A stretch of 64,000 nt of DNA from Gemmatimonadota bacterium (lineage in GTDB: Bacteria; Gemmatimonadota; Gemmatimonadetes; Gemmatimonadales; Gemmatimonadaceae). Shown here one piece after another: positions 22,641 through 56,695 of this stretch. The stretch is taken from NCBI GenBank assembly GCA_021298395.1, contig JAJTFH010000008.1, positions 1 through 64,000 of the forward strand, given 5' to 3'. Each line of letters begins with the position of its first letter. The stretch's first letter is position 1. A program made the position numbers and the translations under genes. Under the pieces are notes generated by a model. The model was given only the letters and a program-made list of their open reading frames with translations. It was not told the DNA's origin and did no database searches.

Positions 22641-23147
22641 TCAGGGGGAGCGACGCGTCGAGTTGAAGCCGATCGACGCGCCAACGGCCGGAAGGAGGGC
22701 GATGAGGTTGGCGGTCGCCCAGCGCCCCCTGGTGCGCATCCCCGAGGGGGGATTGAGCTCGGGACCGAGGAGGACCCGCGCGAGTGCCATCGAGGCGGCG
22801 AATCCGACACCGGCGCCCAACGCCGTCGCATCGAAGTCGCCGGACTGGTCGCCGAGACTCCCGATCCCATACACGACCCCAGCGGTCGCGAGCCCGCCGC
22901 CGATGGTACCGGTCGCGAACCCCACCTGGCGGATCGTCGGCTCGTGCTCGCTCCCGAGGCGCTGCACGATCTCCTCACCCACATAGCGCCCGATGATGAA
23001 ACCGCCGATCCCCGCATAGGCGCCGAGCACCACCTCGCCCGCAACGCGTGCCGGCTCGAGTCGTGGCTTGGGTTGCTGCTGCCCCTCAGCCGCCCTCGCC
23101 GTCGCGACGAGCGCGAGCATCACCATCGCGAGGCGCGCGGCGCGCAT
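22641..23147 (-). CDS. Exported hypothetical protein with glycine-rich hydrophobic helices
   Basis: About 168 residues with a signal peptide (MRAARLAMVMLALVATARA) and two or three Gly/Ala-rich hydrophobic stretches (GAYAGIGGFIIGRYVG, ATGTIGGGLATAGVVYGIG, LGAGVGFAASMALA), the look of glycine-zipper envelope proteins. The start is either ATG 23147 (one base shared with the thrS stop) or GTG 23150 (four-base overlap), so it is translationally coupled to thrS. The function is unknown. Confidence 0.75.
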   Translation of the reverse strand: MRAARLAMVMLALVATARAAEGQQQPKPRLEPARVAGEVVLGAYAGIGGFIIGRYVGEEIVQRLGSEHEPTIRQVGFATGTIGGGLATAGVVYGIGSLGDQSGDFDATALGAGVGFAASMALARVLLGPELNPPSGMRTRGRWATANLIALLPAVGASIGFNSTRRSP

Positions 23148-25099
23148 CACTCCGCTCCGGCGGAGGACGGGGTGAGCGCGCGGGTGCGGATCTCCTCGGT
23201 CACCCGGGCGATGAAGGCGTCGAGCGCGACGACCTCCTGCTTCTTCCCGGCCCCGCGCACGCGGACGGCGACCTGCCCCGCCTCCGCCTCACGCTTACCC
23301 AAGACGAGCATGTACGGGGTCTTCTGGATCTCGCCGTCGCGGATGCGGTAGTTGAGGGTGTCACTGCGCGCATCGAGGTGCGCGCGCACCCCCGCGGCCT
23401 TGAGCGCCGCCGTCACCTGCTCGGCGTACGGGAGGAGCTCGTCGGAGATCGGGAGGACGCGGACCTGCTCCGGCGCGAGCCAGACCGGGAAGGCGCCCGC
23501 GAAGTGCTCGATGAGGATCGCGAGGAAGCGCTCGAACGACCCGCTCACCGCGCGGTGGATCACCACCGGACGATGCGCGGCGTTGTCCTCGCCGGTGTAG
23601 GTGAGGTCGAAGCGCTCCGGCGCATTGTAGTCGAGCTGGATCGTCCCGAGCTGCCAGGCGCGGCCGATCGAGTCGAGCACGTCGAAGTCGATCTTGGGGC
23701 CGTAGAAGGCACCGTCGCCGGGCTTCATCTCATACGGCCGCCCAGTGGCGTCGAGCGCCGCGCGGAGCGCCCCCTCGGCGCGATCCCACAGCTCATCGGA
23801 GCCGATCCGCTGTTCCGGGCGCGTCGCGAACTTGAGCCGGGCCTCGAGCCCGAAGGTGTCGTAGTACGCGAGGATGAAGCGCATGAGGAACGCGACCTCA
23901 TCGGCGATCTGGTCCTCGCGCAGGTACACATGGCAATCGTCCTGCGAGAACTGCCGCACGCGGGTCAGCCCGGAGAGCGCCCCCGAGATCTCATTGCGGT
24001 GGAGCGCATCGAAGGTGACGTAGCGCTTGGGGAGCTCTCGATACGAATGCTTGTCCGACCCGAAGTAGAGATGGTGGGACGGGCAATTCATCGGCTTGAG
24101 CGAGAAGTCGTGCTCCCCCGTCTCGTTGTCGAGGACGAGGAACATGTTCTCCTTGTACTTCCCCCAGTGCCCCGACTGCTCCCAGAGTCGCTTGTGGTAG
24201 AGGAGCGGGGTCTTGATCTCGAGAAAGGCGTCCTGCTGCCGCTCGCGGATGAACCCCTCGAGCGTGTTCCAGAGTTGCGTCCCCTTCGGCGTCCAGAAGG
24301 CGGCGCCCGGCGCCTGCGGGAAGAACTGGAAGAGATCGAGCTGCTTCCCCACCACGCGGTGGTCGCGCTTGCGCGCCTCCTCGATCCGATGGAGATGCCC
24401 CGCGAGCTCGTCCTTCTTGAAGAAGGCGGTCGCGTAGATGCGCTGCAGCATCTGCCGCTTCTCGTCACCGCGCCAATAGGCACCGGCCGCCGAGAGCAGC
24501 TTGAAGTGCTTCAGATACGAGGTATCGGGGACGTGCGGGCCGCGGCAGAGATCGGTGAACGGACCGTCGGTGTAGGTCGAGAGGATCTCGTCCGACCCCT
24601 CGAAGTCCTCAAGGCGCTCCAACTTGAGCGGATCATCGGCGAAGACCCGCTTCGCCTCCGCCTGGGAGACCTCGGCCCGCACAAAGGGGAAGGCCTCGGC
24701 GACCACCTTCCGCATCTCCGCCTCGAAGGCCTCGAGGTCCTCTGGCGTGAAGGGCCGCTCGACCTCGAAGTCGTAGTAGAAGCCGTCGTCGATCGCGGGG
24801 CCGAAGCCGATGTGCGCGTCCGGCCGGAGGCGACGCACCGCAGTCGCCAGGATGTGCGCGCCCGAATGCCGAAGGACGGCGAGGGCGCGCGGGTCCTTCT
24901 CCGTGATGACCTGGAAGCTCCCGCTCTGGCGGATCGGGGTCATCAGGTCCTGCACCTCCCCCTCCACCGCGACGGCGATCGCCGCCTGCAGGAGCCGGGG
25001 CCCGATCGTCGCGACGACGTCGCGGGCCAGGGTGCCGGGGGCGACCTCGCGGGTCGCCCCATCGGGGAGGGTCAGGATGAAGGGCGCGGCGTCGACCAT
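23147..25099 (-). CDS. thrS: Threonyl-tRNA synthetase
   Basis: The 650-residue enzyme charges tRNA-Thr. In order: an N-terminal TGS domain (1-60), the editing/SAD domain (HSGAHILATAV, then DGFYYDF), a class II catalytic core and a C-terminal anticodon-binding domain. The zinc ligands are kept: the Cys in MNCPSHH, the His in DCHVYLRED and the His in PVVIHRAVSGS. The usual CPGH motif reads CPSH here. No T-box leader is present; the -10 element is only a few bases from the start codon. Confidence 0.97.
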   Translation of the reverse strand: MVDAAPFILTLPDGATREVAPGTLARDVVATIGPRLLQAAIAVAVEGEVQDLMTPIRQSGSFQVITEKDPRALAVLRHSGAHILATAVRRLRPDAHIGFGPAIDDGFYYDFEVERPFTPEDLEAFEAEMRKVVAEAFPFVRAEVSQAEAKRVFADDPLKLERLEDFEGSDEILSTYTDGPFTDLCRGPHVPDTSYLKHFKLLSAAGAYWRGDEKRQMLQRIYATAFFKKDELAGHLHRIEEARKRDHRVVGKQLDLFQFFPQAPGAAFWTPKGTQLWNTLEGFIRERQQDAFLEIKTPLLYHKRLWEQSGHWGKYKENMFLVLDNETGEHDFSLKPMNCPSHHLYFGSDKHSYRELPKRYVTFDALHRNEISGALSGLTRVRQFSQDDCHVYLREDQIADEVAFLMRFILAYYDTFGLEARLKFATRPEQRIGSDELWDRAEGALRAALDATGRPYEMKPGDGAFYGPKIDFDVLDSIGRAWQLGTIQLDYNAPERFDLTYTGEDNAAHRPVVIHRAVSGSFERFLAILIEHFAGAFPVWLAPEQVRVLPISDELLPYAEQVTAALKAAGVRAHLDARSDTLNYRIRDGEIQKTPYMLVLGKREAEAGQVAVRVRGAGKKQEVVALDAFIARVTEEIRTRALTPSSAGAE

Positions 25100-25106
25100 A
25101 TCGGGG

Positions 25107-25193
25107 GAAAGCTAGCCGCCCGCCGAGTGGGGGCCAACCACGCCAACCCCAAGCGCGGCGCGTGGATGCGCCCCCTCCGAGCGGCTAGCTTTC
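25107..25193. promoter_or_regulatory. Symmetric divergent thrS/valS promoters in a 13-bp inverted repeat
   Basis: GAAAGCTAGCCGC (25107-25119) and its perfect complement GCGGCTAGCTTTC (25181-25193) flank the divergent spacer. Each copy holds TAGCTT pointing to its own gene: 7 bp separate the repeat from the thrS ATG and 4 bp from the valS ATG. For thrS a TTGGCC lies 17 bp upstream of TAGCTT; for valS a weaker TGGATG does. A shared operator is also possible. Confidence 0.55.
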
Positions 25194-25197
25194 ACGG

Positions 25198-27972
25198 ATG
25201 TCCGAGACCCCGTCCGCCGCCCCCGATTTCCCCACCCATTTCGACTTCTCGACCGCCGAACGCGAGCTGAGCGCCGCGTGGGAGGGGGCTGGACTCTTCC
25301 GGGCCGAGGCCGACCGGACGACCCGCTGTGGTGGGGACCGCGACCCCTTCACCGTCCTGATCCCCCCGCCGAACGTGACGGCGGTGCTCCATGTGGGGCA
25401 TGGGCTCAACAATACGGTGCAGGATGTGATCGTCCGGTGGCGCCGCATGTCGGGGGACGAGGCGCTCTGGCTCCCGGGGACCGACCATGCCGGGATCGCC
25501 ACGCAGAACGTCGTCGAGAAGCAGCTCGCCAAGGAGGGGAAGACCCGCTTCGACCTGGGCCGCGAGGCCTTCGTGAAGCGGACCGAGGCCTTCGTCGAGG
25601 AGACCGGGGGGACGATCCTCCGCCAGCTCCGCGCGATCGGCGCCTCCGCCGACTGGTCCCGCACCGCCTACACCTTCTCCCCCGCCCTCTCCAAGGCGGT
25701 CCGCGAGGCCTTCGTACGCCTCTATGAGAAGGGGTTGGTCTACCGTGGCCATCGTGTGATCCACTGGTGCCCGCGTTGCCTCACCTCGCTCTCGGACGAG
25801 GAGGCGGAGTTCCACGACAGCCAGGGGAAGCTCTACCACATCGCTTACCCGCTGGCCGATGACCCCTCGAGGAGCATCACGATCGCGACCACGCGGCCGG
25901 AGACGATGCTCGCCGACGTCGCCGTCGCGGTGCACCCGGAAGACGCGCGCTACGCCGACCTCGTCGGGAAGGAGCTGACCCTCCCCCTCGTCGGGATCCG
26001 CATCCCGGTGATCGCCGACGCCTACGTGGAGAAGGACTTCGGCACCGGCGCGCTCAAGATCACGCCGGCGCACGATGCCAACGACTTCGAGGTCGGCGCG
26101 CGGCATCAGCTCGGGCGCCCGGTGGTGATCGATGCCGAGGGCCGGATCCGTGCCGTCGCCGACGCCGCGGGCCGCATCCCCGCCGCTCTCGAGGGGCTCG
26201 ATCGCTTCGAGGCGCGCAAGAAGGTGGCCGAGCTGCTCGAGGCGGCAGGCGTGCTCGTGAAGGTCGCCGAGCATCCGAACAGCATCCGGCGCTGCTATCG
26301 CTGCGACACCGTGGTCGAGCCGCGCCTCTCGCAGCAGTGGTTCGTGAAGATGGCGCCGCTCGCCGAGCCCGCCCTCGCCGCGGTGCGCGATGGGACCATC
26401 CGGCTCCTCCCAGAGAAGTGGGAGAAGGTCTACATCAACTGGCTCGAGGGGATCCGCGACTGGAACATCTCGCGTCAGCTCTGGTGGGGACATCGCATCC
26501 CCGTCTGGACCTGCGGCGACTGCGGCGCGGTCTCGGCGCTTCGTGAGGATCCGAGCGCCTGTCCGTCGTGCGGCTCCGCGAAGCTCGAGCAGGACCCCGA
26601 CGTCTTCGACACCTGGTTCTCCTCTGGGCTCTGGCCGATCTCCACCCTCGGCTGGCCTGACGAGAACGCCAAGGACCTCAAGGCCTTCTTCCCGAGTGAC
26701 GTGCTCGTCACCGCGCCAGAGATCCTCTTCTTCTGGGTCGCGCGGATGATCATGACGGGGTACGCCTTCCAGGGGCGTCCTCCCTTCCACACGGTCTATC
26801 TCCACGGGACCGTGCGCGACATGCAGCATCGCAAGATGTCCAAGTCGCTCGGCAATGGGATCGATCCGCTCGACGTGGTCGAGCAGTTCGGCGCCGACGC
26901 GCTGCGCTGGACCCTGATCCAAGGGATGGGGCTCGGCGTCGACGTGATGCTCGACCCGAACGACCTCGAGAAGTCGTTCGCGCCAGGGCGCAACTTCGCG
27001 ACGAAGCTCTGGAACATCGGCCGGTTCATCCTCCTCCAGGTCGGGGAGCAGCCGGTGCAACCGCTCGTACAGATCGACGCGGCACAGCTCGCGCTCGCGG
27101 ATCGGTGGATCCTCGGGCGACTGCGTGCGACGATCGCCGAGTGCGATGCCGCACTGGGTCCAGCGCGTCCCACGAATGCGAGCGCGACCGCCGATGGCCA
27201 TTGGCCCGAGGAGGCGCGGCAGGTCGGCCTCCGGCTCGATGCCTACGCCGAGGGGGCGCGGCGCTTCCTCTGGAACGAGCTCGCCGATTGGTATGTGGAG
27301 GCGGTGAAGGGACGACTCGCGCAGCCCGGTGCCGACCGCGAGGTCGCGCGCGCGGTGCTGGTGCATGTGATGGATCAGGGACTCCGCCTGCTCCACCCGA
27401 TCATGCCCTTCGTGACGGAGTCGCTCTGGCAGCGCCTCCCCGGTACGCAACCCGGAGCCTTCCTCGCCGTCGCGCCCTGGCCGACGACGCAGGCCGCCGC
27501 CGCGCCCGAGGGGCGTGATTTCGAGGTGATCCGTGAGGCGATCGATGCGATCCGCGCGCTCCGCGCCGAGTATGGCGTGCAGCCCGGTGCAGGGATCCGC
27601 GCGCATGTGAGCGCGCACGCGGCGCGGGAGACGCTCCTGCGCGATGCGGCGTTGGTACAGCGCCTCGCGCGTTGTGAGCTCGATGGCGCGGCAGCGCCGA
27701 GCGGGGCGGCGGCACATGCCGTGCTTCCATCGGGGCTCGAACTCTCGCTCCCACTCGCGGGGATGGTCGATGTCGCGAAGGAACGCGCGCGACTCACCGG
27801 CGAGATCGAGGGGCTCACCAAGCAGCTCACCGGGCTGCGCGGGCGGCTCGCGAACGAATCGTTCACCGCCAAGGCGCCTGCCGCGGTGGTGGAGGCGGAG
27901 CGCGCGAAGGAGCGGGAGTGGACGGCGCGGGTCGATCAGTTGCAGTCGAAGCTCGCCGAGCTCGGCTCGTGA
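25198..27972 (+). CDS. valS: Valyl-tRNA synthetase
   Basis: The 924-residue class I synthetase charges tRNA-Val. It has HVGH (residues 65-68), the editing-domain TTRPETMLADVAVAVHPED, KMSKS (546-550) and the C-terminal Val-type coiled coil (about 860-920, ERARLTGEIEGLTKQLTGLRG). The zinc-type CxxC pairs (CGDC, CPSC) are present in the insert near residues 440-465. The predicted transcription start coincides with the ATG, so the mRNA may be leaderless. The 3' end overlaps the lipoprotein gene by four bases. Confidence 0.98.
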   Translation: MSETPSAAPDFPTHFDFSTAERELSAAWEGAGLFRAEADRTTRCGGDRDPFTVLIPPPNVTAVLHVGHGLNNTVQDVIVRWRRMSGDEALWLPGTDHAGIATQNVVEKQLAKEGKTRFDLGREAFVKRTEAFVEETGGTILRQLRAIGASADWSRTAYTFSPALSKAVREAFVRLYEKGLVYRGHRVIHWCPRCLTSLSDEEAEFHDSQGKLYHIAYPLADDPSRSITIATTRPETMLADVAVAVHPEDARYADLVGKELTLPLVGIRIPVIADAYVEKDFGTGALKITPAHDANDFEVGARHQLGRPVVIDAEGRIRAVADAAGRIPAALEGLDRFEARKKVAELLEAAGVLVKVAEHPNSIRRCYRCDTVVEPRLSQQWFVKMAPLAEPALAAVRDGTIRLLPEKWEKVYINWLEGIRDWNISRQLWWGHRIPVWTCGDCGAVSALREDPSACPSCGSAKLEQDPDVFDTWFSSGLWPISTLGWPDENAKDLKAFFPSDVLVTAPEILFFWVARMIMTGYAFQGRPPFHTVYLHGTVRDMQHRKMSKSLGNGIDPLDVVEQFGADALRWTLIQGMGLGVDVMLDPNDLEKSFAPGRNFATKLWNIGRFILLQVGEQPVQPLVQIDAAQLALADRWILGRLRATIAECDAALGPARPTNASATADGHWPEEARQVGLRLDAYAEGARRFLWNELADWYVEAVKGRLAQPGADREVARAVLVHVMDQGLRLLHPIMPFVTESLWQRLPGTQPGAFLAVAPWPTTQAAAAPEGRDFEVIREAIDAIRALRAEYGVQPGAGIRAHVSAHAARETLLRDAALVQRLARCELDGAAAPSGAAAHAVLPSGLELSLPLAGMVDVAKERARLTGEIEGLTKQLTGLRGRLANESFTAKAPAAVVEAERAKEREWTARVDQLQSKLAELGS

Positions 27973-55809: not shown

Positions 55810-56690
55810 CCACAGGCACCGCCGCCCGCGTCGACGCGCAGGCGAAGATCAACCTCTCGCTGCGCATCCTCGCGCGGGAGACCACCGGCTTTCATCAGCT
55901 CGAGACCCTCTTCGCCCGCATCGACCTCGCCGACACCGTCGAGGTCGCGCTCGACACCAGCCAGCGGGACATCGTGGTCGAGGGGGCCGACGTGGGGCCG
56001 CCGGAACAGAACCTCGCGTATCGCGCCGCGGTGGGCTTCATCACGGCGACGCGATGGGAGACGGGGTTCCGTATCCGCATCGTGAAGCGGATCCCAGTCG
56101 GTGGGGGGCTCGGCGGCGGCAGTGCCGATGCCGGCGGCGTCTTGCGGATCCTGAACACCTTGGCCCCGCGGCCCCTCTCCCCCGCGGCGATGATGACGCT
56201 CGCCGTCCGGCTCGGCGCCGACATCCCCTTCCTCACCGTCGAGGCCCCGGCGGCCTTGGCCTGGGGACGCGGGGAGCGGATGCTCGCCCTCCCACCCCTG
56301 CCACCTAGAGATCTGGTCCTCGTGGTCCCCCCCTTCGGGGTGAACACCGCCGAGGCGTTCGGGTGGGTGGCGGCGCAGCGCGAGGGCCGGCCCATCATCG
56401 CCCCCGCCCCGTTGGTCGCGGACGATCTCACCCGCTGGGAGCGGATCGCTCGTCTCGCGGACAACGACTTCGAGCCGGTGGTGGTCGAGCATCACCCGGC
56501 GATCGGGAACTGTCTCTGGGCGCTCCGGGTCTCCGGAGCCCTGATCGCTCGCCTCAGTGGGTCGGGATCGACCGTGTACGGGGTCTTCGATGGGGGGGCC
56601 CCCGCCACCCTCCCGGGGCTCCCCGACGGGACGCGGATCATCCACTCGGGCTTCGCGACGCGGGTGGCCCCCGTGGAGCGACTCGGCTAG
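55806..56690 (+). CDS. ispE: 4-diphosphocytidyl-2-C-methyl-D-erythritol kinase
   Basis: This 294-residue GHMP kinase acts in the MEP isoprenoid pathway. It shows the substrate motif AQAKINLSLRIL, the ATP-binding loop PVGGGLGGGSADAGG and the C-terminal SGSGSTVYGVF. The TAG stop also forms the start of a likely promoter for tRNA-Gln. With pdxJ, it is another enzyme linked to deoxyxylulose-phosphate use. Confidence 0.96.
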   Translation: MTTGTAARVDAQAKINLSLRILARETTGFHQLETLFARIDLADTVEVALDTSQRDIVVEGADVGPPEQNLAYRAAVGFITATRWETGFRIRIVKRIPVGGGLGGGSADAGGVLRILNTLAPRPLSPAAMMTLAVRLGADIPFLTVEAPAALAWGRGERMLALPPLPPRDLVLVVPPFGVNTAEAFGWVAAQREGRPIIAPAPLVADDLTRWERIARLADNDFEPVVVEHHPAIGNCLWALRVSGALIARLSGSGSTVYGVFDGGAPATLPGLPDGTRIIHSGFATRVAPVERLG

Positions 56691-56695
56691 CTTCC
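56688..56695 (+). promoter_or_regulatory. Candidate -10 element of tRNA-Gln overlapping the ispE stop
   Basis: TAGCTTCC begins with the ispE TAG stop. The predicted transcription start is about 9 nt before the tRNA. Confidence 0.45.

Follow-up and report, generated by a model that had tools for sequence, protein, structure and literature searches.

The best overall explanation for the region separating thrS and valS in this Gemmatimonadota genome, and one held with good confidence, is that two housekeeping promoters, independent but alike in consensus, face outward from it, give rise to leaderless transcripts and were joined by gene loss. In the window (the whole stretch of DNA analysed, 64,000 nucleotides long), the two genes are those named in an earlier note on this DNA, as attested by NCBIfam equivalog models. 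Indeed, thrS (23147..25099, minus strand) encodes a threonyl-tRNA synthetase of 650 aa (TIGR00418, 651 bits for a cut-off of 384; Pfam TGS, tRNA_SAD, class II core and anticodon domains) and valS (25198..27972, plus strand) encodes a valyl-tRNA synthetase of 924 aa (NF004349, 1053 bits for a cut-off of 704; Pfam matches), with ATG start codons at 25099 (minus strand) and 25198 (plus strand), respectively. Within the 98-bp spacer, the 13-mer GCGGCTAGCTTTC is found exactly at 25181..25193 on the plus strand and at 25107..25119 on the minus strand, with 4 nt between it and the ATG of valS and 7 nt between it and that of thrS; the inverted repeat of 13 bp and the two gaps described in the earlier note are both borne out. 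In a repeat search, each arm could be lengthened to 16 nt (94% complementarity), the arms then being separated by 55 nt.

Each arm overlaps a putative -10 box of sequence TAGCTT, at 25186..25191 (plus strand) for valS and at 25109..25114 (minus strand) for thrS, which each promoter would set directly on the start codon of its own gene. A putative thrS -35 element, TTGGCC (25132..25137, minus strand), lies 17 nt from its -10; a weak candidate for the valS -35 element, TGGATG (25163..25168, plus strand), also 17 nt from the -10, is proposed by position only and showed no conservation among relatives. The hexamers are 6 nt (valS) and 9 nt (thrS) from the ATG, and the 5' leaders are therefore predicted to be about 0-3 nt long, in agreement with the earlier proposal that transcription starts close to both ATGs. 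If transcription starts seven bases downstream of the -10 hexamer, in line with the usual -10 spacing, valS transcription is predicted to begin at the A of the ATG (25198, plus strand) and thrS transcription at 25102 (minus strand), with a leader of about 3 nt; the mRNAs of both genes would be leaderless or nearly so, and would be translated without a Shine-Dalgarno (SD) site. Leaderless transcription is probably the right reading for both genes. It has good support at valS and is likely at thrS, whose -10 box is farther from the ATG than that of valS, a difference that counts against it. Furthermore, the first T of TAnnTT lies 12 nt (valS) and 15 nt (thrS) before the start, both genes thus having the TANNNT core expected of leaderless genes, and none of the four motif-bearing genes of the window, thrS and valS included, has GGAG, GAGG or AGGA between -20 and -5.

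The assignment of TAGCTT as a -10 box, put forward in the same note, is supported by valS orthologs, by tRNA genes and by a positional peak in a congener. Indeed (i) in 66 of 78 valS orthologs, a TANNTT begins 11-16 nt upstream of the ATG, for about 0.005 per gene expected from the remainder of the upstream region, and its middle bases vary between species (18 TAACTT, 16 TAGCTT, 12 TATCTT, others), a pattern that fits a -10 box, (ii) in the window's own genome (G000), TANNTT is present 11-20 nt upstream of 6 of the 30 tRNA genes inspected (42 found), genes that need no start codon call and many of which, when devoid of the motif, sit inside clusters, (iii) in 200 kb of the congener G012, 11 of 155 predicted gene starts are preceded by TANNTT at 11-16 nt and none in the flanking 6-nt bins (background 0.0013 per gene), with an SD-like motif in 1/11 of these genes versus 39/144 of the others. 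In the window, the motif is found at 11-16 nt in 4/51 genes, among them thrS and valS, and it therefore occupies a fixed place before gene starts in both samples, the starts being in both cases the predictions of a simple codon-usage gene caller (own script). The valS set comprised 82 loci (80 ValS relatives, the window and the related genome G004), of which 78 had a called start and sufficient upstream sequence; the 80 relatives are nearly all Gemmatimonadetes, Gemmatimonadaceae or Gemmatimonas by title, with one Roseisolibacter (L116) and one locus bearing another organism's name (L128), and they place the window in Gemmatimonadaceae. All 12 exceptions were counted as misses, including five (L129, L134-L137) in which the start caller's GTG runs into TTATCTT; in the others, the motif is located at 18 nt in one and at 22 nt in one, and is absent from five.

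A sigma-70 scan of the spacer, using an E. coli-type model, found no promoter. The string GCTANCTT-N4-9-ATG occurs 15 times in the window's own genome versus 6 times for a backward-string control, which matches coding-sequence composition poorly, and one of these occurrences precedes leuS. Across 59 family genomes, it fell below the same control (886 vs 1269; above it in 18/59), and this genome-wide count was dropped as support. At locus L182 (G000:C52:20440-20455), GCTAGCTTTC ends 3 nt before the ATG of leuS (TIGR00396), which would therefore be a third synthetase gene with the same promoter type.

Transcription could instead start upstream, with the repeat lying in the 5' leader of each mRNA as a hairpin or as a synthetase-binding or T-box-like leader. 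Aminoacyl-tRNA synthetase genes in other bacteria are often under leader control and the spacer is able to form a hairpin, but an Rfam search of the spacer returned no family at gathering score, its two hits being far below (E 0.38 and 0.76), and no T-box or other known RNA leader was recognised at that score in the 5' region. Moreover, TAnnTT keeps a constant distance before the valS orthologs across the family, and in two sister species, G001 and G009, the entire spacer measures 34 bp and a TAnnTT is still found 12 nt from each ATG, so that a leader could hardly be accommodated. The RNA-leader hypothesis was dropped for want of Rfam support and is considered extremely improbable.

Under the preferred reading of two separate leaderless promoters, the inverted repeat consists of two copies of a promoter consensus. 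The earlier note had seen in it one symmetric site for two synthetases, an interpretation that was not supported, each arm resembling the promoter of its own gene in relatives. As a symmetric operator, the repeat would be bound on both arms by one regulator co-regulating thrS and valS, and since the arms overlap the -10 boxes, binding would block both promoters. In keeping with such a site, the arms are identical at 13/13 positions, and when the 98-bp spacer was shuffled by dinucleotides, a perfect inverted repeat of at least 13 bp arose in only 1/2000 cases; the exact 13-mer is present in the 1.82-Mb genome at the two spacer sites only, a further site differing from it by one mismatch; and the spacer positions that differ between G004 and G000 (11/98) leave both arms untouched (probability 0.027). 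However, two plain promoters predict arm conservation equally, and the random-sequence null overstates the surprise of the repeat, because a recurrent promoter consensus accounts for most of the 13 positions. Similar sequences precede leuS, tRNA genes and unrelated genes, and no regulator gene is implicated. With two mismatches or fewer, four copies of the 13-mer are found in the window for 1.25 expected, a number reached by 3/100 shuffles. One such two-mismatch copy, TCGGCTAGCTTCC (56683-56695), ends 12 nt before a tRNA-Gln gene (56708) and is consistent with a -10 box.

The search for the repeat in orthologous thrS/valS spacers, which had been suggested as a check, also went against a joint site. 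Only G000, G013 and G004 show the symmetry, which is absent from G001 and G009 and from the more distant genomes compared; in G007, the exact 13-mer stands alone before valS, with no mirror copy on the thrS side. The operator was rejected on the ground that symmetry is not kept, being absent from G001 and G009, the two other genus genomes found with the genes directly adjacent. From the sequence comparisons, thrS and valS are probably not under one shared control site, and joint binding by one regulator is regarded as very unlikely.

The order of genes in relatives points to how the two promoters came to adjoin. The genes thrS and valS are divergent in all 71 loci in which both starts were found (71/71), with a gap of 34-1916 nt, and they were found directly adjacent in 5/17 genomes of the genus. 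In G000, G013 and G004, the spacer is 98 bp long and symmetric, and a search with the spacer region in the 17 genus genomes gave matches in these three only. In G001 and G009, the 34-bp spacer carries unlike -10 boxes, TACCTT for thrS and TACTTT for valS, and the thrS-side and valS-side 13-mers of G009 are alike at 8/13 positions. At these two loci (L008 in G001, L007 in G009), the -35 region of each promoter would lie in or at the other gene, and the two promoters should therefore compete. In eleven other genus genomes, a gap of about 0.87-1.1 kb contains a gene for a BON-domain protein and a small ORF, the latter located upstream of thrS and ending at it. The BON-type protein before valS was read directly in 8/11 of these genomes and in G015, PF04972 being tested on one, while in G007, G016 and G005 the assignment is based on the gap and on an opposite-strand reading.

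All eleven genomes with intervening genes have exactly one TANNTT on the thrS strand in the last 420 nt. Furthermore, thrS of G000, G013 and G004 and the small ORF of 7/11 of these relatives share a promoter of the form GGTTGGC, a spacing of 17-18 nt, GGC/CGC and TAnnTT, the putative thrS -10 and -35 elements of the window being placed accordingly. With a single TANNTT in all eleven genomes and the GGTTGGC spacing in seven, the simplest reading is that the thrS promoter of the window is an old one, from which the small ORF and thrS were both expressed. Both the BON-domain gene and the small ORF appear to have disappeared from the window's lineage, in which two older promoters were kept. This loss would have brought the thrS and valS promoters together, with thrS fused to the promoter it formerly shared with the small ORF, beside the promoter of valS itself.

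Two further observations concern the intervening region. A conserved element, TTGAANGCTG-N19-GCAAG, is found with fixed spacing between the small ORF and the BON gene (L013, L012, L009 and others) in 7/17 genus genomes and is absent elsewhere in those genomes, apart from a second, overlapping match in G016. Its interpretation as an RNA leader was dropped, as it is more simply read as a promoter of the opposite-strand BON gene; that strand looks like a putative promoter, TTGCCG-N17-CAGCCT, which overlaps the small-ORF promoter, and the two would therefore exclude each other. In G015 (L075), two opposite-strand ORFs are located between the BON-like ORF and valS and, from their translations, look like an antitoxin of the AbrB type and a toxin with a PIN domain.

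The degree of symmetry is itself to be explained. The thrS-side and valS-side 13-mers of the same genome are alike at 13/13 positions in G000, compared with 7-10/13 in the 12 other genomes compared, and symmetry in G000 therefore exceeds the usual yield of a shared consensus; between genomes, 13/13 likeness occurs in 3/169 pairs, all involving the thrS arm of G000 or G004. The likeness of the two promoters also continues somewhat past the 13-mer (GCGTGG.TG.GCCCCC), which is unexplained by a shared -10 consensus alone and counts against the reading of two independent promoters. Such symmetry could come from chance, from selection for the same strong -10 box, or from template-switch correction in a quasi-palindrome.

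An inverted duplication was first favoured because of this extended likeness: one of the thrS and valS promoters would be an inverted copy of the other, produced by template switching at a palindrome during gene loss and followed by palindrome-templated correction. The similarity spans about -40 to -7, the spacer halves align at a score of 44 versus a shuffle maximum of 32, and, without the 13-mers, the observed score is reached in 4/3000 shuffles, although the same inner similarity is matched by 70/5000 random window segments. As single-stranded DNA, the spacer folds into a single hairpin (z about -3 to -4), and the 34-bp spacer of the sister species looks quasi-palindromic too; the folding of the inner 61 nt, however, is no stronger than that of shuffles (z about -1). 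As an origin for the thrS promoter, duplication was demoted since the thrS-side -35 and -10 elements resemble a promoter already present in relatives, with no new promoter needed, and it is now judged unlikely. The single-strand hairpin was likewise rejected as a functional unit, its inner part being ordinary and 7/300 random 98-nt window segments reaching z -3.

A more far-reaching scenario for this small clade is also considered unlikely. It supposes that thrS, once leadered and driven as part of an operon, became leaderless with the loss of two genes, its promoter now pointing away from that of valS, that palindrome-templated copying mirrored the promoters, DNA symmetry thereby setting both synthetases to the same strength, and that the promoters in the 34-bp sister spacers overlap to such an extent that they can be occupied only one at a time. 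Within the favoured explanation, i.e. two older promoters joined by gene loss, near-perfect symmetry would not reflect selection for a joint operator but chance and the shared consensus, with palindrome-templated correction as a possible contribution. A striking repeat can thus consist of two copies of a promoter consensus, and the gene losses that joined them are still legible in relatives.

Back-to-back divergent promoters generally allow two genes to be read outward from one short spacer, as is the case here, but at thrS/valS nothing indicates shared regulation. In the literature covered, which includes few subscription papers, no paper on divergent thrS/valS promoters was found, judged by titles and abstract openings, and no earlier report of leaderless transcription in Gemmatimonadota; the anti-SD type of Gemmatimonadota is given in PMC10783764. 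The present analysis therefore brings sequence evidence for -10-adjacent leaderless promoters, a known promoter type, in a phylum for which no earlier report was found, and the TAnnTT motif could aid start-site annotation in Gemmatimonadota. According to the available text of Zheng et al. 2011 (PMC3160421), in which Gemmatimonadota are not named (0 occurrences of 'gemmatimona'), a TANNNT motif located some 10-12 bp upstream of the start codon marks leaderless 'TA-led' genes in bacteria, and high-GC genomes retain only the TAnnnT core, with no SD site. Like these genes, thrS and valS have a TANNNT core near the start and no SD site, but their motif, as counted here, has a T at the fifth base too (TAnnTT). 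A -10-like motif that replaces the ribosome-binding site, 6-7 bp before the ORF, was described for Deinococcus-Thermus by Zhong et al. 2025 (PMC12340547), and the hexamer-ATG distance of 6 nt at valS resembles this arrangement. The two differ in that Deinococcus-Thermus, another phylum, favours TACACT whereas TAACTT, TAGCTT and TATCTT are found here, and in that the thrS gap is 9 nt and a conserved -35-like GGTTGGC is present on the thrS side, the system described here being known from sequence.
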